Of a stretch of DNA of 64,000 bases, positions 53,562-59,206 are shown in pieces. Numbering within the stretch: position 1 is the first letter of the stretch; every line of letters starts with the position of its first letter. The position numbers and the translations under genes were made by a program. The DNA is from Tuwongella immobilis (GTDB lineage: Bacteria; Planctomycetota; Planctomycetia; Gemmatales; Gemmataceae): the NCBI RefSeq assembly GCF_901538355.1, contig NZ_LR593887.1:1402920-1466919 (forward strand), given 5' to 3'. Under the pieces are notes generated by a model, which searched no databases, was not told where the DNA came from, and saw only the letters and a program-made list of their open reading frames with translations.

Positions 53562-54992
53562 TTATCCCGGCGGCGGGCCTTCGACATAGCCTTCGCTGCT
53601 CTTTTCGCTGATGAGTTTTTCGATGGCCGATTGCGCGGCGGCAGGAGTAGCAAAGCTCTTGGTTTTGCTCTGCCCCGCGCTGCCGATTTTGCCCCAGCGG
53701 GTGGTCATGTCGCTGCCAGACTGCGCGACGGCCCAGAATTTCGCCGATTTCGCATCCCGGAATTCAAAATAGCGCTCCCCACCCGCGATTGCGCCCGATG
53801 ATTCCGACCCAGCGGATCCTGTCGGGGGCACGGGCAGAATCGGCGTGCCGGTGGACGGAGTGACCGGCGGCGTGGGAATCGTTCGGGCCGAGATGAGGAA
53901 TCCGCTCGGGGTGCTGGTGCTGGTGACGACGATTGGCGTGGGTTGGGGCGTGGGCGGGGTGCGGGTGAGCGAGGCGGCAATGTCTTTGCGCTCGCGGACG
54001 TAGCTGGGAAATCGCGGCACACCCGCATCCGAAAATTCCTGATAACGGAATGTGATGGTTGCCCCGATGGCGGGCGGTTGTTCCCGTTCGCGGTCGCTTA
54101 GGCCGGTGCCGACGGCGAACTCGATGCCGTTGGCCAGTCGAACCAGCAGCGCCCCGACGCGCCCTTTATGTTTGCCCAGTCCGGCTTGATGGCCGATGAC
54201 CACTGCCTCAGCGTCATGAAAGGTTTTGACTTTCACCAACGTGCTGGAGCGTCCCACCTCGTAATTGGAGCCGGGTTGTCGCAGCATCAGCCCTTCGCCG
54301 CCCAGCGATTCCACGCGGGTCAACTCCTCGCGCAAATGCTCCAGACTGCGGCAGCGTTGTTGTTCGAGCGCAGTTGCGAATTTCGGCGGACGACTGGCGA
54401 GCAGATCCTGCACGAATGCGAGTCGATCTTCGAATCCGCCCGATTGTTGCGGTGCATCAAAGATCAGGAAGCGGACATCCTTCCAAAGGTCGGTTTTGTC
54501 CTGCCGGCGCACAATGCCAACGGTGCGTTGAAACGCCTTGCGGGCGATCCAGAGTTCGCCATCCAAGGGCGTTTCGGGGAGTCCGTCCAGAAACCAATCG
54601 GGGGCGTGATAAAAATTCCCCTGGCGGGAAAGGAATTGTTTGCCGTCCCAGAAGGCCCGCACACCATCGAGTTTTTCGGACATCCACCAGCCGGAAAGAT
54701 CCGCAGCGTTGTCCCAACTCTCGGCCAAGAGAATCGGCGGGCCGGCGACTTCATCCCCATCCGCAGTCGCCGACGCGGGTCGTTGCGGAAGTGCCGCCCC
54801 ACAGCGTGCTTCCTCCGCGGCATCGCCTCGCAATTTGCGAAGATGCTTGCAGGTCCGCCGCTCAATCGCGACCGACTGATTCCGCCACGCCGGACAGGTA
54901 CACGAATAGACGCCGCCGCTATTTTTCAGCAAATACGGCTTCGCCCCCGAGCCTTTCATTTCGACGGTTTCGCCATCCTGCAAATCCGGCAT
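53562..54992 (-). CDS. ATP-dependent DNA ligase with SWIM zinc finger and WGR domain
   Basis: 476 residues from MPDLQDGETVEMKG, chosen because of GGGAGGGGGCGAG just upstream. A SWIM zinc finger at about 28-52 has YSCTCPAW and RTCKHLRK (CxC...CxH). The minimal ligase core follows: motif I SEKLDGVRAF with Lys107 as adenylated residue, LDGELW, LIFDAP, GGEGLMLRQP and LVKVKTF, then an OB-fold part (GRVGALLV, FRYQEFSDAGVPRFP), like LigE-type small bacterial ligases. A Thr/Pro-rich linker leads to a C-terminal WGR domain (RYFEFRDAKSAKFWAVAQ, TTRWGKIGSAGQ), a nucleic-acid-binding module known from PARP proteins. No signal peptide. Probably seals nicks in repair; the SWIM and WGR ends suggest targeting to damaged DNA. 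Confidence 0.85.
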   Translation of the reverse strand: MPDLQDGETVEMKGSGAKPYLLKNSGGVYSCTCPAWRNQSVAIERRTCKHLRKLRGDAAEEARCGAALPQRPASATADGDEVAGPPILLAESWDNAADLSGWWMSEKLDGVRAFWDGKQFLSRQGNFYHAPDWFLDGLPETPLDGELWIARKAFQRTVGIVRRQDKTDLWKDVRFLIFDAPQQSGGFEDRLAFVQDLLASRPPKFATALEQQRCRSLEHLREELTRVESLGGEGLMLRQPGSNYEVGRSSTLVKVKTFHDAEAVVIGHQAGLGKHKGRVGALLVRLANGIEFAVGTGLSDREREQPPAIGATITFRYQEFSDAGVPRFPSYVRERKDIAASLTRTPPTPQPTPIVVTSTSTPSGFLISARTIPTPPVTPSTGTPILPVPPTGSAGSESSGAIAGGERYFEFRDAKSAKFWAVAQSGSDMTTRWGKIGSAGQSKTKSFATPAAAQSAIEKLISEKSSEGYVEGPPPG

Positions 54993-55316
54993 CTCGCCCC
55001 CTCCCACATCCCGATAACCCCTTTCCCCAACCTTACCCCGCCTCAAACCAAAAAGCGAGCTTCGTTGCCACGATTCCGGAGGTGGGGCGGTCATGCGCGA
55101 AGGGCCACCAATCGAAAAATTTCAGGGAAAATCTGTCATCGTTCCTCGGATGAAGGCAAATTGAGAGAGACTGAAATCCAAGGAATGTGACTAGAATTCG
55201 CATGGTCGCAAAATTTTTGTGGCCTTCACTTGCCATTCCATACGAGACAGCGTATCTTTAACATGCTCACGAACACGGCCGTTTCGAGGTCATTGAAGTT
55301 CGTGGAGGTAGACTGG

Positions 55317-55350
55317 TGTGTCGAAACTGACATCGCTCAGTTTCGACACA
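55317..55350. promoter_or_regulatory. Inverted repeat TGTGTCGAAACTG / CAGTTTCGACACA
   Basis: Perfect 13-bp arms (14 with flanking G-C) around an 8-base spacer. No T-run follows, so an operator is more likely than a terminator. Each arm contains the 12-mer that recurs nearer to the operon start. Confidence 0.6.
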
Positions 55351-55427
55351 CTTCGTCACTTCACATCGATATCCAACAAACCTACTTTACGAGAGAGTAA
55401 CCCGATGTAATGTCTCTATGTTATCCG

Positions 55428-55504
55428 TCAGTTTAAACAGTCAGAGTGTACCCACAATTTCAAGGTAATCGATCATGTAATTGCTTTATTCGTCAGTTTG
55501 AACA
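55428..55504 (+). repeat. Two direct repeats TCAGTTTnAACA, 65 bases apart
   Basis: TCAGTTTAAACA (55428-55439) and TCAGTTTGAACA (55493-55504). Similarity extends on both sides: CG before, and CAG-TRTACCYACA after, and ATGTAA occurs upstream of each. They match the hairpin arms upstream. Confidence 0.7.
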
Positions 55505-55543
55505 AGCAGTATACCTACATCCGTGACTCTCGAAAGGACTTCC

Positions 55544-56158
55544 ATGTCTACCTGGAATGTGCCGACCGCTGCGCCATTTGAATCCGTTTGTGTTTCGATG
55601 GCTGCCATCGAGCACTGGCTTCGCGGGCATTGTGCCGATCAAAAACCATCCCGTGGTCAATATCGTGACGATCATTTCAAAGTCTTTGACGAATCACGCA
55701 TCCAAGCCATCTGGAATCCAGATCGCCGAACATTCCGCAATCGACTGATCGACGCGGTGCCATTGATTCAAGATCTCGGCAATCTCATTTCTCCTGCAAT
55801 CGACCACGGTTCGTATCTGCTCCACGATGAATACGATCTCAACAATCGCTTCGCCAAACATTGTGCTGTCGTTGTCTGTAAGCCTGGATTGGTCGCGATC
55901 CTGGAGCAATTACGCACTGGCTGGAACTTCACCACCGCTTACTTCACCCACAATACCGATTCCCGAACTCGGGGTTATCGCTCGACAGTGATACGATTGG
56001 TGCAAACGTACACCAATTCCACCAATCGCTTGCCGGCACCTACCGAATCGGTTTGGATTTCGAAGACGGTGCGTCGCACCAACATTCGTTTTGGCAATTC
56101 GCCGCTGTGGGGCGAGCATGACGGGCATTTCGACCCGATCCGCATTCAGGACTGGTGA
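55544..56158 (+). CDS. Unknown protein heading the CARF/Lon/sigma operon
   Basis: 204 residues from ATG 55544 (AAAGGA upstream). No family recognised. Predicted soluble alpha/beta: an N-terminal helix MAAIEHWLRGHC, DDHFKVFDESRIQAIW, RRTFRNRLIDAVPLIQDLGNLIS, then YDLNNRFAKHCAVVVCKPGLVAILEQLRTGW and YRSTVIRLVQTYTNSTNRLP. The NRFAKH segment followed by a strand and YxSTVIRLV is loosely like small RNase-type toxins, but this is speculative. Its base composition is more AT-rich than that of housekeeping neighbours. It lies 93 bases ahead of the sigma-like gene on the same strand, so it could be an effector of the system or a target of the sigma factor. Confidence 0.6.
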   Translation: MSTWNVPTAAPFESVCVSMAAIEHWLRGHCADQKPSRGQYRDDHFKVFDESRIQAIWNPDRRTFRNRLIDAVPLIQDLGNLISPAIDHGSYLLHDEYDLNNRFAKHCAVVVCKPGLVAILEQLRTGWNFTTAYFTHNTDSRTRGYRSTVIRLVQTYTNSTNRLPAPTESVWISKTVRRTNIRFGNSPLWGEHDGHFDPIRIQDW

Positions 56159-56251: not shown

Positions 56252-56947
56252 TTGGATTCCACAGAAATTGAGCCGATTATTGAGCGGATTGCTTGGCTGG
56301 TATCTCGAAGGGGACAGCGACAAGATCGGGAAGATTTTGCACAAGAGTTGTATCTGCATCTGCATCAACCACGGGCAAATGGCAGCCGGATCTCGAAATG
56401 TGATCCCAAACGTCCGCTGGAACCGTTCATCTACCGCATTGCAGAGCGGCTTTGGTCTCGACAGCGGCGGCGAAACGGGATGCACTCGTTGCATCAAACG
56501 GATGGAGTTCCGATTGAACCGGCAGACCATCGGGGAAGGAATGACCGATTGTTTCTGGCGCTTCACCGTCTCGGTGTTGAGCCGTTTTCCGAAACGGATT
56601 TGGAGATTTTGGCAACATGGCAATTGGATCGACGGGTGATTCTTTTGGCTGTGACGCATCTGCATCACAAATATCCGCCACAATGGTGGCAGCGAGACGT
56701 TCTTCAACTCGGCTCGCGTCGAAACTTGGTGATCCCGATGCCGTTTCCACCCGTGGAATGTCTTCCGGATCAGGGCTCCCGGAGCCGCTACAATCGAATT
56801 GCTGAACTCTTGCAGACTACCCCGAATAATCTCGCTCAAGTATTTAAGCGAAATCGACAGTTGCTCCAACAACTGGAATGCGTTCAACATGCGTTCCGGA
56901 TGTTGGATTGGGAGAACGAGAATGACCAATCAGGAAGCATCCGATGA
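56252..56947 (+). CDS. ECF-like RNA polymerase sigma factor (CalpS-like position)
   Basis: 231 residues from TTG with GGGAGAAG just upstream. Residues about 8-75 match sigma-70 region 2: IERIAWLVSRRGQRQDREDFAQELYLHLHQ, then PLEPFIYRIAERLWSRQRRR, which follows the EDlxQExflxL ... fxxyLyxiaxnxxxxxxRrr pattern. Near the C-terminus YNRIAELLQTTPNNLAQVFKRNRQLL could be the region 4 helix-turn-helix. The segment between (RVILLAVTHLHHKYPPQWWQRDVL) is longer than in standard ECF factors. The next gene starts 26 bases before this one ends, so the two are co-translated. In the CalpL system a sigma factor is held by a partner and freed by proteolysis; the same role is inferred. Confidence 0.6.
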   Translation: MDSTEIEPIIERIAWLVSRRGQRQDREDFAQELYLHLHQPRANGSRISKCDPKRPLEPFIYRIAERLWSRQRRRNGMHSLHQTDGVPIEPADHRGRNDRLFLALHRLGVEPFSETDLEILATWQLDRRVILLAVTHLHHKYPPQWWQRDVLQLGSRRNLVIPMPFPPVECLPDQGSRSRYNRIAELLQTTPNNLAQVFKRNRQLLQQLECVQHAFRMLDWENENDQSGSIR

Positions 56948-57842
56948 TCCTTGGGGCTATCGCCTCGATTTGATCGATGCCGTGGCCGGGGAATCGGATT
57001 CAACGATTATTTTGGCATGGGCTCGCTGCATTGCAGCGGGCGTATCGATCGACGCTGATCTCCGGCTGAAAGCGCAAGCATCTCTGCCACAAGCACTTGC
57101 ACAACTTCGTGACGAGATGCAAGCATGGGTCGAAGCCGCCAAGGAACTGGATGCGGATTGGCAACAAGCCGACGATCTCTGGCATGCTGCCGATATGGTC
57201 AAATCAATTGTTGAATTGCGATGCGATGCTGAAGGCTTGGCTCAGCTCTATGGCGACGCGATTCGGGCTGAGGTGGCGGCGTTTGATTCGGCGTTGCGGG
57301 GTGTGTCGGATTTGTTGGGCACGATCGATGGATCGCCTTGGGTGGATGCGTGGCGGCGGTCGATGGCGGCGCTGGGCGTCGATGCGTGGTGGCTCTCCGT
57401 GCCGCCGGTCGAAGTCGAAATGCCCGAGATGCGCTACGCCGAAATCCTCCGCAAAATCGATGCCTGGAAGTTGTCGGAACCTGCGATTCCCGGATTGATG
57501 GCCGCCGCGACACCGTCACAACATCGCATCCATCGGTTCGTATGGGAATCGCCGGATCAGCAATTTCGTGCGGAACTGGAAGTCGCTGCCGAAGTCGCAG
57601 AAGTCGACCGAAACCAATCGCTGTTTTCGCTTGTCTTTGTCGATTCGGAAGGTATCCCGACACCCGCACTCGATGGACAATCGATGCGGTTGGGGATGCT
57701 GAATCGGACGATTTCGGTGGATGGCGAGATTCGAGCGACCATCCAAGACTTTTGGCAGCATTCCGATGGTCGCTTGTTCGTGAACGATGTCGAATGGAGG
57801 ATGATCCACGCTCCGACTTTGTTTTCTGAGGAAGAGGACTGA
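56922..57842 (+). CDS. Unknown protein between sigma factor and CARF-Lon protease (candidate anti-sigma/substrate)
   Basis: 306 residues from ATG 56922 (GGGAGAACGAG upstream), overlapping the sigma-like gene by 26 bases. No family recognised. Residues 1-140 are helical and acidic (LRDEMQAWVEAAKELDADWQQADDLWHAADMVKSIVE, RAEVAAFDSALRGVSDLLG). A Pro/Trp-rich middle (WWLSVPPVEVEMPEM) leads to a beta-rich C-terminal domain (HRFVWESPDQQFRAELEVAAEV, SLFSLVFVDSEG, MLNRTISVDGEIRATIQDFW). The order sigma, this protein, protease matches the idea of an anti-sigma factor cut by the protease, as CalpT is cut by CalpL; this is inferred from position only. Its stop shares one base with the protease start (TGATG). 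Confidence 0.6.
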   Translation: MTNQEASDDPWGYRLDLIDAVAGESDSTIILAWARCIAAGVSIDADLRLKAQASLPQALAQLRDEMQAWVEAAKELDADWQQADDLWHAADMVKSIVELRCDAEGLAQLYGDAIRAEVAAFDSALRGVSDLLGTIDGSPWVDAWRRSMAALGVDAWWLSVPPVEVEMPEMRYAEILRKIDAWKLSEPAIPGLMAAATPSQHRIHRFVWESPDQQFRAELEVAAEVAEVDRNQSLFSLVFVDSEGIPTPALDGQSMRLGMLNRTISVDGEIRATIQDFWQHSDGRLFVNDVEWRMIHAPTLFSEEED

Positions 57843-59206
57843 TGCACCTGAATGCCGCAACCCTGAAAAAACTGGTGGATTTCACCGGGCCTAGCGATGC
57901 TCAGATCCGGACTGCGGTTCGGGTGTTGGGCGGGTTGTCGGGCCTGTGGCTTTCTCGAACCGCTCGGCACCGAGCCGACGGGATGACCGAGGATTCTCTC
58001 ACGCAAAGACGCCTTGCGGAATGTCAGCAGTTGTTGCATTCCGAGTTGGGGAAGTGTGCGATTCTGCTGGTGTTTTCGAAACCGTTGGCGATGCTGCGGA
58101 ATGCGGTCGTGCTGCCGGTGCGCTGGGTGAAGGATTCTGCGCATTCGTCGCAGTTTCCGCCAGCGCTGCACGAGTTGGCGGATCGGGTGCGACATGCGGT
58201 CTTCCAGCAATGGTTTTCGCCCAAATCGGGGGACGTTCCGACCGAGCCGCCGCGCTGGGGACTGCATCCGGCTTGCAGTGGCGATTGGCAATTGCAGGAT
58301 GATTTGTTTCACGGGCTGGAATCCGCGTGGGCGAGTCTGTCTGCGGGATTGGTCGCCGCTCATCTCGGATTGTTGCCGCAAATGACCGCCTTTGCATCAA
58401 TCGCCTTGCAAGACGGCTATTCGCAGATTGTTGAGGGATTGACGGAGAAAATGGCGGCGGCGTGCGATTTCGGCGCGACGGTCTTCGCGGTCGATTCACG
58501 CCAACGCGAAGCAGCCCAAACCGCGGCTCGCCAATTCGCACCATCGCTGACCATCGTTTCCGCCGAGGCGAATGATCCGAGTTTGAAGGGCGTGTTGCGA
58601 TCCTATCTCCCGGAATTCACCGACGAACCGGCGGTCCCCGAGCATGTCAAGGATGCCGTGTTCCAGCGATGCGTGGCGTACTATCAACTGTTCGATCCAA
58701 GATCCAAACGTGCGAAGACGTTCAAACACTCGCATTTGCAGCCGGTGATCATTCGCAATTGTCGAAGTCAATTTCGTGAGAAAATTGGCGAAGGCAAGCT
58801 GACGCATCTGGTGGTGATCGTCTCGGGAAGCCCGGATTTGCAGCAATTGCTCATCACGGCTACCGGGGTGTCGCGGGTGTTGCTGTTGCATACGAATGAC
58901 GCTCGACAAACGAATGCCGCGATGGAATTGCAGCGAGAATTTCCGCAAAGTTGTTTGGCGTCATTCGTCGCAGATGATTCGATGCCCGAGACGTTTTGCC
59001 GAGAGATTGCCAAATTCACCGAGCATGTGCCACCAGAGCAAGTGGGAATCGATGTGAAATCGGGCACCGCCAAGATGAAGTATTGGATGGGGCGATTGGC
59101 GCATCCGGAGAATTGGATTCTGAATCTCGAATCGGCACATGTCGACAATGTTGCCGTGCCCGGGACTGAACGGGTCGAGCTTTGGCGGGCAGGGGTTTCG
59201 GGGTGA
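57842..59206 (+). CDS. Lon-like protease with C-terminal CARF-like sensor domain
   Basis: 454 residues, translationally coupled to the gene before it (TGATG; GAGGAAGAGG upstream). Residues about 85-260 follow the Lon (S16) protease fold: WASLSAGLVAAHLGLL aligns Ser167 with the catalytic Ser of DGPSAG, and IVEGLTEKMAAACDFGATVFAV aligns Lys203 with the Lys of GGxxEKxxAAxxxG. The Ser-Lys gap is 36 residues, a little shorter than in Lon. No AAA+ domain is present. Residues about 318-450 look like a CARF Rossmann fold: LVVIVSGSPD, VSRVLLLHTND, ASFVADDS and IDVKSGTAKMKYWMGRL, the last resembling the ligand-site DxTGGTKxM motif. The expected activity is proteolysis switched on by a cyclic oligonucleotide. 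CalpL has the same layout but with SAVED. Confidence 0.6.
   Translation: MHLNAATLKKLVDFTGPSDAQIRTAVRVLGGLSGLWLSRTARHRADGMTEDSLTQRRLAECQQLLHSELGKCAILLVFSKPLAMLRNAVVLPVRWVKDSAHSSQFPPALHELADRVRHAVFQQWFSPKSGDVPTEPPRWGLHPACSGDWQLQDDLFHGLESAWASLSAGLVAAHLGLLPQMTAFASIALQDGYSQIVEGLTEKMAAACDFGATVFAVDSRQREAAQTAARQFAPSLTIVSAEANDPSLKGVLRSYLPEFTDEPAVPEHVKDAVFQRCVAYYQLFDPRSKRAKTFKHSHLQPVIIRNCRSQFREKIGEGKLTHLVVIVSGSPDLQQLLITATGVSRVLLLHTNDARQTNAAMELQREFPQSCLASFVADDSMPETFCREIAKFTEHVPPEQVGIDVKSGTAKMKYWMGRLAHPENWILNLESAHVDNVAVPGTERVELWRAGVSG

Follow-up and report, generated by a model that had tools for sequence, protein, structure and literature searches.

What does a Lon protease cut when it carries no AAA+ unfoldase and ends in a CARF domain? 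The question is raised by a 64,000-nucleotide stretch of the Tuwongella immobilis genome (contig NZ_LR593887.1, positions 1,402,920 to 1,466,919; hereafter the window), in which one open reading frame (ORF) encodes such a Lon-CARF protein. The original prediction, made by a model from the sequence alone, concerned this protein. The most important observation lies outside that prediction: genes for a sigma factor and for two more conserved proteins, here called mid and g4, stand directly upstream. Together the four genes probably form a transcription switch that is triggered by the protease and coupled to type III CRISPR immunity, in which Lon-CARF would cut mid and free the sigma factor.

The predicted ORF is present, and its product is confirmed as a Lon (S16) proteolytic domain with a C-terminal CARF domain, a conclusion on which sequence profiles and predicted structure agree. 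The profile search that had been proposed against the S16 and CARF families recovered both. More specifically, the PADLOC model CARF_m2--CARF_LON matches the window protein with an E-value of 6e-80 over residues 20-450 (profile positions 20-408 of 408), and all 32 relatives scanned match it as well. A 32-sequence Lon-CARF profile run against the PDB found the proteolytic domain of Archaeoglobus fulgidus Lon (1z0e, E 4.5e-11, profile 145-243) and, with its CARF part, Thermus Csm6 (5fsh, E 1.3e-12, profile 266-444), followed by weaker matches to Can2 and Cam1; a profile of 18 Lon parts alone reached 1z0e at E 1.8e-11. An AlphaFold2 model built from seven sequences (predicted local distance difference test, pLDDT, 85.0; predicted template modelling score, pTM, 0.81) was compared with known folds by Foldseek and VIA-align. 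The latter aligned it with the LONP1 protease (Z 16.2, 182 residues, 2.8 Å) and with the CARF domains of Can2 (Z 16.8, 118 residues, 2.1 Å), Csm6 (Z 16.4, 168 residues, 2.9 Å) and Cam1 (Z 16.1, 143 residues, 2.7 Å). The fold comparison suggested with the prediction thus bore out Can2 and Csm6 as neighbours; CalpL, named there for the Lon part, is absent from the 50 fold matches listed and from the 59 profile matches. The AAA+ module that distinguishes the LonA and LonB holoenzymes is also absent, as had been claimed: the Lon part (to about residue 263) and the CARF part fill the entire protein.

Simpler searches are nearly blind to this family. Pfam and NCBIfam scans of Lon-CARF as a single protein gave no matches, a phmmer scan of the single protein gave nothing or weak matches, and Pfam on the 32 relatives returned only weak ones, to CARF_Card1 in five (best E 0.0009) and to Lon_C in four (best E 0.007). 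A plain Pfam check would therefore miss Lon-CARF, and family profiles are required. PADLOC entry PDLC01981, for the CARF_m2 / CARF-Lon effectors, is reportedly associated with the 2020 work of Makarova. The architecture is not new in itself, being covered by the PADLOC model and by the accessible part of a review (PMC9704534), in which cutting of host proteins by a killer protease is the guessed role. The accessible part of the 2025 CRISPR classification (PMC12669027) lists Lon-family proteases among effectors of cyclic oligoadenylate (cOA).

Relatives were collected in two draws. Among 392 genomes of the phylum, queried with the single protein, six gave a match, the own genome included; among 397 genomes of the class, queried with a profile, 38 matched at E ≤ 1e-3 and 28 at E ≤ 1e-30. 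These 28, from 24 genera, are counted as Lon-CARF genomes, the remaining ten of the 38 having partial, weak matches. With the 32-sequence profile, strong matches were found in 7 of the 392 genomes of the phylum-wide draw, so the family is rare outside the class. The comparisons below use 39 loci with their flanks, namely six seeds (the window and L011-L015, with two from other classes) and L047-L079; L097 from genome G096, the fragment L098 and two further locus sets were excluded. The 32-sequence alignment omits L048, L051, L055, L072, L073, L074 and L079. The sigma alignment holds 28 sequences (without L068 and the split L074), the mid alignment 29 (without the split L076) and the g4 alignment all 25. 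The Lon-CARF proteins of the 39 loci are diverse, with a median pairwise identity of 25% and identities of 24-64% (median 35%) between nearest neighbours.

Only W95, S161 and K203 among the residues of the window protein never vary across the 39 sequences. When the Lon parts are aligned with A. fulgidus Lon, the invariant Ser meets the Ser of its GDSAS and the invariant Lys the Lys of its TQK; we take these two residues to be the catalytic dyad of that enzyme. Lon-CARF is accordingly assigned a predicted Ser-Lys dyad, S161-K203, with its two members 42 residues apart. The original prediction was right that both kinds of dyad residue are present and wrong about the serine: its distance of 36 residues implies S167, which is Ala in 29 of the 39 sequences. 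Because the catalytic Ser is S161 and the spacing is 42, nothing remains of the trimmed loop that the shorter distance had suggested. In the CARF domain the motif DVKSGTAKM was found at residues 404-412, as announced, and reads as a variant of DxTGGTKxM. The most common residues of the relatives at these positions are D-L-T-P-G-T-K-x-M, with D404 in 36, T406 in 35 and G408 in 37 of the 39 sequences; the window protein deviates at 406, where it has K. This variant marks a putative site for cyclic oligoadenylate, and control of the protease by such a ligand would be the natural inference.

The companion genes recur in most loci. In the window the order is g4, ECF-like sigma (extracytoplasmic function), mid and Lon-CARF, all on the same strand; the 3' end of the sigma gene overlaps mid by 26 nucleotides and the mid stop overlaps the Lon-CARF start (TGATG). 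Seed profiles of sigma, g4 and mid were made from the six seed loci (five for g4) and applied at E ≤ 1e-3. Directly upstream of Lon-CARF in the other 33 loci they found mid 18 times and g4 nine times, and they matched nowhere else in the 619,713 bases scanned. Iterated profiles found mid in 30 and g4 in 25 of the 39 loci, and one further mid (L114), beyond this count, was found in extended upstream sequence of L079. An ECF sigma gene beside the protease, a trait of the CalpL/T/S system, was detected in 30 of 39 loci by the iterated profile, which also detects four sigma genes elsewhere, and in 11 of 33 by the seed profile. At least one of the three genes lies directly upstream of Lon-CARF in 33 of 39 loci; the exact order sigma-g4-mid occurs in 19 and g4-sigma-mid in three (the window, L047 and L050).

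Lon-CARF goes with type III CRISPR. RAMP genes (PF03787, E ≤ 1e-8) were present in 64 genomes of the same 397-genome draw, comprising 27 of the 28 Lon-CARF genomes and 37 of the 369 others (Fisher p 4e-23). Genes of the cmr or Cas6-like kind lie within 10 of the 39 locus stretches; the cas profiles behind this count were built on cas genes of the own genome, which were named by eye, and on two Cas6-like genes taken from L012 and L015, two loci that are among the ten positives. The own genome holds a type III-B set with Cmr proteins recognised by eye, three RAMP matches and a Cas10 with GGDD. A Csm1-profile match in the own genome (E 1.1e-9) is below the cut-off, and a neighbour of the set weakly matches a CRISPR-associated protein (E 1e-3).

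The phyletic pattern of mid suggests a link to the protease. A weak model of mid from six sequences (pLDDT 70.6, pTM 0.48) suggests a helical N-terminal part up to residue 150, an Ala-rich linker of low confidence (pLDDT under 50 at 161-201) and a beta C-terminal part at 203-296. Mid was detected in 30 of the 397 genomes, 25 of the 28 with Lon-CARF and 5 of the 369 without. In the five without Lon-CARF the match ends at positions 211-246 of the 346-position profile, whereas each of the 25 has one match or more that extends to position 336 or farther (Fisher p 7e-6); with a separate mid profile of 348 positions, four of the five have matches ending at 213-250. The beta domain of mid thus appears to be present with Lon-CARF and missing without it. 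Some of the full-length mids in these genomes stand apart from Lon-CARF (L104-L112). In 27 of 29 mids an Ala-Ala pair precedes the conserved W208 by no more than 32 residues, against a background of 48% in N-terminal windows (binomial p 4e-7). In the window protein this pair falls within M193-A196, and the M-A-A-A stretch is a candidate for the cut site and nothing beyond that.

In three of the five mid-bearing genomes without Lon-CARF the helical part begins a long ORF. In L099 it shares one ORF with a YprA-type helicase (6znp, E 1e-88), in L100 with a RapA-like ATPase (E 4e-34), and in L101 it fronts a 1451-amino-acid protein with, by eye, a DUF1156-type methylase look, the partner part of which had no PDB match at E ≤ 0.01. 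Directly upstream of these fusions are sigma and g4 in L099 and L101 and sigma in L100, where a g4-like ORF is visible by eye. Because the fusions keep the sigma gene and the beta domain tracks Lon-CARF, the helical part appears to go with sigma and the beta part with Lon-CARF. Such fusions possibly put a transcription alarm on other defence systems. By eye, the mid of L104 lies near reverse transcriptase and Cas1-like ORFs, that of L106 near a large helicase-like ORF on a contig that also has RAMP matches, and those of L107 and L110 near PP2C-like ORFs.

The sigma factor of the window is only weakly recognised by itself. Alone, it scores 19.2 bits against Pfam Sigma70_r2 (cut-off 24) and 25.6 bits, E 8e-6, against TIGR02937 (cut-off 42.9), below the cut-off in both cases. 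The family profile matches RpoE/SigE structures at E 4.3e-10, and Sigma70_r2 is matched by 16 of the 28 members; no region-4 model is among the 13 families listed for these 28. Mid and g4 had no credible family match in the libraries tried. In g4, residues H24, H29, G115 and W204 are nearly invariant in 25 sequences. A second, lone g4 homologue (E 2.4e-24) lies in the own genome at G000:C1:1191410-1192012 (L113 6875-7513), and no sigma, mid or Lon was detected in the 14 kb around it.

From the domain composition, the conservation of dyad and operon, the linkage to type III systems and the concordance of the mid beta part with Lon-CARF, we infer each step of the following mechanism. On detection of foreign RNA, Cas10 of the host type III-B system would make a cyclic oligoadenylate, and the CARF domain of Lon-CARF would bind it. 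Cyclic tetra-adenylate (cA4) would be the first ligand to suspect, given that Can2, Csm6, Cam1 and Cad1 supply the closest CARF fold matches and that several of these were solved with cA4. Through Ser161 and Lys203 the Lon domain would then cut mid to a limited extent; the Ala-rich linker that joins the helical to the beta part is the most likely place. Before the cut the helical part would hold the ECF-like sigma factor inactive, and the beta part may let Lon-CARF act on mid, as the phyletic pattern suggests. The freed sigma factor would alter transcription, perhaps that of its own operon included, and g4 may form a conserved third arm.

Two known systems make this mechanism likely. In one, CalpL, a Lon-SAVED protease of type III CRISPR, cuts the anti-sigma protein CalpT, and CalpS is an ECF sigma factor (accessible parts of PMC11417357, PMC12751052 and PMC11229360). 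The present system shares with it an N-terminal Lon domain, a putative C-terminal cOA sensor, a neighbouring ECF sigma factor and a third protein as the possible inhibitor that is cut. It differs in its sensor, a single CARF domain of about 185 residues like that of Csm6 and Can2, whereas SAVED consists of two CARF-like domains of about 225 residues (accessible part of PMC12751052); mid, moreover, is helical and beta and matched nothing MazF-like, and g4 is an additional gene. In the other, type III-E loci carry csx30, csx31 and a sigma gene, Csx29 cuts Csx30 and so relieves inhibition, and Csx30 has two domains joined by a flexible linker, the N-terminal one binding CASP-sigma and the C-terminal one the protease (accessible part of PMC10028731). 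The same four roles recur here (a protease, a two-domain protein with a linker, a small third protein and an ECF sigma factor), and the division of labour within Csx30 is the one proposed for mid. Unlike type III-E, where a CHAT protease is bound to Cas7-11, the protease here is Lon-CARF, which should need a diffusible messenger. The mid and g4 profiles found no chain named Csx30 or Csx31 in a PDB library whose full-chain content for these proteins is unchecked, and the mid model is weak. With Csm6/Csx1, Can2, Cam1 and Cad1 the protein shares the CARF fold and a motif of the D-x-T-x-G-T-K-x-M type, and differs from them in that its effector part is a protease.

A distant relative of the locus, L097 in genome G096 from another class, bears on the role of mid. 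Its Lon-CARF gene (E 9.8e-56) encodes 690 amino acids with an additional C-terminal part and is flanked by type III genes, by eye a Cas10 with GGDD and a reverse transcriptase-Cas1 ORF. Upstream of it lie an ECF sigma factor (Sigma70_r4_2, E 1.2e-9), one unassigned ORF and a 276-amino-acid protein with an H-x3-C-x2-C motif near its N-terminus, presumably as in zinc anti-sigma factors, and a LRAAAEGG stretch. Against the mid beta profile the C-terminal part of this protein reaches 14.9 bits, where the best of 1000 shuffles gave 8.6, and its N-terminal part has no match to the mid N-profile. In a larger set the same beta profile did not report the protein, so the likeness is faint. If the motif is genuine, G096 would have a similar beta domain on a classical anti-sigma domain. 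The zinc anti-sigma label, to which Pfam zf-HC2 gave no support, was not retained. With 113 Sigma70_r4_2 matches at E ≤ 10 in the G096 genome, a nearby sigma factor is weak evidence there. Mid is described here as a putative anti-sigma-like protein, a role suggested by its position and by this case.

Several observations weigh against the proposed switch. In six of the 39 loci none of the three genes is seen upstream of Lon-CARF. L051 stands at a contig end, in L077 sigma and mid are downstream instead, and the other four, L057, L059, L066 and L073 (8 kb of upstream sequence read), are real exceptions. Furthermore, G517 (L068) has sigma without mid, and G533 (L069) has sigma and g4 without mid. 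A distance of 0.6 Mb separates the window operon from the cas genes of its own genome, and the window showed no CRISPR array. Mid has no relation to a known anti-sigma factor detectable by profile or family searches, and its weak model gave no Foldseek match at E ≤ 0.001 and a best VIA-align Z of 6.7. Pfam zf-HC2 gave 23 places in the G096 genome, the 276-amino-acid protein not among them. The phyletic test of mid is partly circular, since Lon-CARF loci supplied its profile, and relatedness among the genomes must be allowed for; in L102, moreover, 139 unrecognised residues follow the mid match, which makes loss of the beta domain less sure there. Ala-Ala pairs are common in these proteins, as their background frequency indicates. 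No copy of the eight-base core of the repeats described below was detected ahead of the own cas operon or ahead of the L047, L050 and L067 operons. In type III-E, the N-terminal part of Csx30 remains bound to sigma after the cut, and further degradation is thought to follow (accessible part of PMC9729208), so a single cut may not free the sigma factor. Finally, sigma-g4-mid is also present at sites apart from Lon-CARF, beside helicases and other genes, and so the cassette could be a general regulator with Lon-CARF merely as its output.

This last point leads to the alternative that sigma, g4 and mid form a stand-alone regulator of any defence gene downstream, and that Lon-CARF is an effector under its control, a protease switched on by cOA that cuts host proteins and so kills or stalls the cell. 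The helicase, ATPase and 1451-amino-acid proteins that the cassette precedes or is fused to agree with such a regulator, and a killer role is the published guess (accessible part of PMC9704534). We nevertheless regard this alternative as unlikely. All 25 genomes that have both mid and Lon-CARF have the beta domain, and the five with mid but no Lon-CARF lack it, which suggests a direct relation between mid and the protease. Both CRISPR proteases that have a neighbouring sigma factor cut, to our knowledge, the sigma inhibitor, and limited cleavage is usual for Lon domains that lack an unfoldase, which also argues against a killer role.

Less probable again is the release of a toxin by Lon-CARF, with g4 or the beta part of mid as an agent restrained by mid and the sigma factor serving only expression. 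The recurrence of g4 upstream of Lon-CARF would fit, as would its two nearly invariant His residues, which by eye we take to recall small RNase toxins, and a third-arm role in type III-E has been suggested for Csx31 and the C-terminal part of Csx30 (accessible part of PMC10028731). However, no profile search identified g4 as a nuclease, the nearest being a GH-E nuclease match at E 0.16 in one of the 25 members; g4 was not detected in 14 of the 39 loci, among them L054, L056, L067 and L075, which retain sigma and mid; and a lone copy of g4 stands elsewhere in the own genome. The idea of g4 as an RNase toxin, a likeness to which profile searches lent no support, was rejected. That the neighbourhood is a by-product of a commonly inherited defence island, its genes not cooperating, is very improbable. 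Planctomycete sigma factors are many (the own genome gives 78 Sigma70_r4_2 matches at E ≤ 10), and a sigma gene nearby is not rare; yet order and overlap are conserved at a median protease identity of 25%, the seed profiles match nowhere else in 620 kb, and the strong Lon-CARF matches extend across 24 genera.

Several further features of the window and of the related loci deserve mention (Table 1). Upstream of g4 lie two copies of a 24-nucleotide repeat, CGTCAGTTTRAACANNCAG, which with up to two mismatches occurs in the own genome only at these two sites (one match for a reversed-pattern control). Because the repeat is confined to these sites and its core is not upstream of the operons tested, it may serve autoregulation at most, and the idea of a regulon was dropped. 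A hairpin seen by eye at 55318-55355, GTGTGTCGAAACTGA-CATCGC-TCAGTTTCGACACAC, lies upstream of the repeats and g4, and its arms share CAGTTT with the repeats. Adjoining the operon and divergent from it is an ORF at 53562-55094 on the minus strand with, by eye, SWIM-like, DNA ligase-like and WGR-like parts. A second Lon-CARF gene lies in the own genome at 2,200,003-2,201,310 (L067, G000:C1:2191500-2209500; L067 8471-9808), with its own sigma and mid upstream and g4 not detected. In L013 (400-2316, minus strand) the Lon-CARF frame continues without a stop toward a Cys-rich stretch, Cas6-like by eye, and into Ns; a Lon-CARF-Cas6 fusion is possible. GTDB contigs were searched for exact peptides of the window protein (39 stretches) and IMG/VR was scanned (seven stretches), with zero relatives in either case, and tblastn of the window protein against plasmids and of its relative L052 against phages gave no match.

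Table 1. Positions, within the window, of the Lon-CARF operon and its elements.
Feature	Position	Strand	Remarks
24-nt repeat, copy 1	55421..55444	+	upstream of g4; possible promoter/operator element
24-nt repeat, copy 2	55486..55509	+	83% identical, 65 bp downstream of copy 1
g4	55544..56158	+	204 aa; conserved partner
ECF-like sigma factor	56252..56947	+	231 aa; TTG start as listed, start uncertain
mid	56922..57842	+	306 aa; putative anti-sigma-like substrate
Lon-CARF protease ORF	57842..59206	+	ATG start, 454 aa, without AAA+
Lon (S16) proteolytic domain	57950..58630	+	about residues 37-263
S161 codon	58322-58324	+	predicted catalytic Ser of Lon-CARF
K203 codon	58448-58450	+	predicted dyad Lys of Lon-CARF
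CARF domain	58649..59203	+	about residues 270-454
Ligand-site motif DVKSGTAKM (putative)	59051-59077	+	residues 404-412, CARF domain

What is new here is the operon that joins Lon-CARF to sigma, mid and g4, the protein family itself being catalogued. The known CARF_m2/CARF-Lon effectors match the protein over their full length, and differ in that no companion genes or mechanism appear in the accessible parts of their descriptions (among them PMC9704534). A literature search, incomplete in its coverage and so no proof of absence, found no link between CARF-Lon and a sigma factor; the cassette is not described in the accessible part of PMC12839542, and a term search of PMC7159879 gave no occurrence of the cassette terms.

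A type III-E set of Csx30, Csx31 and CASP-sigma is known from the planctomycete Candidatus Scalindua brodae. Tentatively, and with rather less confidence than in the switch itself, sigma-g4-mid may be viewed as a plug-in transcription alarm of immunity in the Planctomycetota, in which the helical part of mid would carry the sigma factor and would be connected to different infection sensors, either to Lon-CARF, as a messenger-activated protease of type III CRISPR, through a cleavable linker and beta domain, or to helicase-type defence enzymes by direct fusion; Csx30/Csx31/CASP-sigma would then be a relative in which the protease was swapped for Csx29.

The accessible literature presents CARF-Lon as a likely killer protease without a substrate. 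A sigma factor and an inhibitor-like gene beside it make a testable signalling relay instead, and the beta-domain pattern indicates both the substrate and the stretch to inspect for a cut. If the switch is real, Lon-CARF would be a third protease family, besides CalpL and Csx29, by which a CRISPR protease frees a sigma factor. Should mid and g4 turn out to be kin of Csx30 and Csx31, this would explain where type III-E obtained its regulatory genes, and if the helicase fusions mean what is suggested here, one planctomycete transcription alarm would serve several kinds of immunity.

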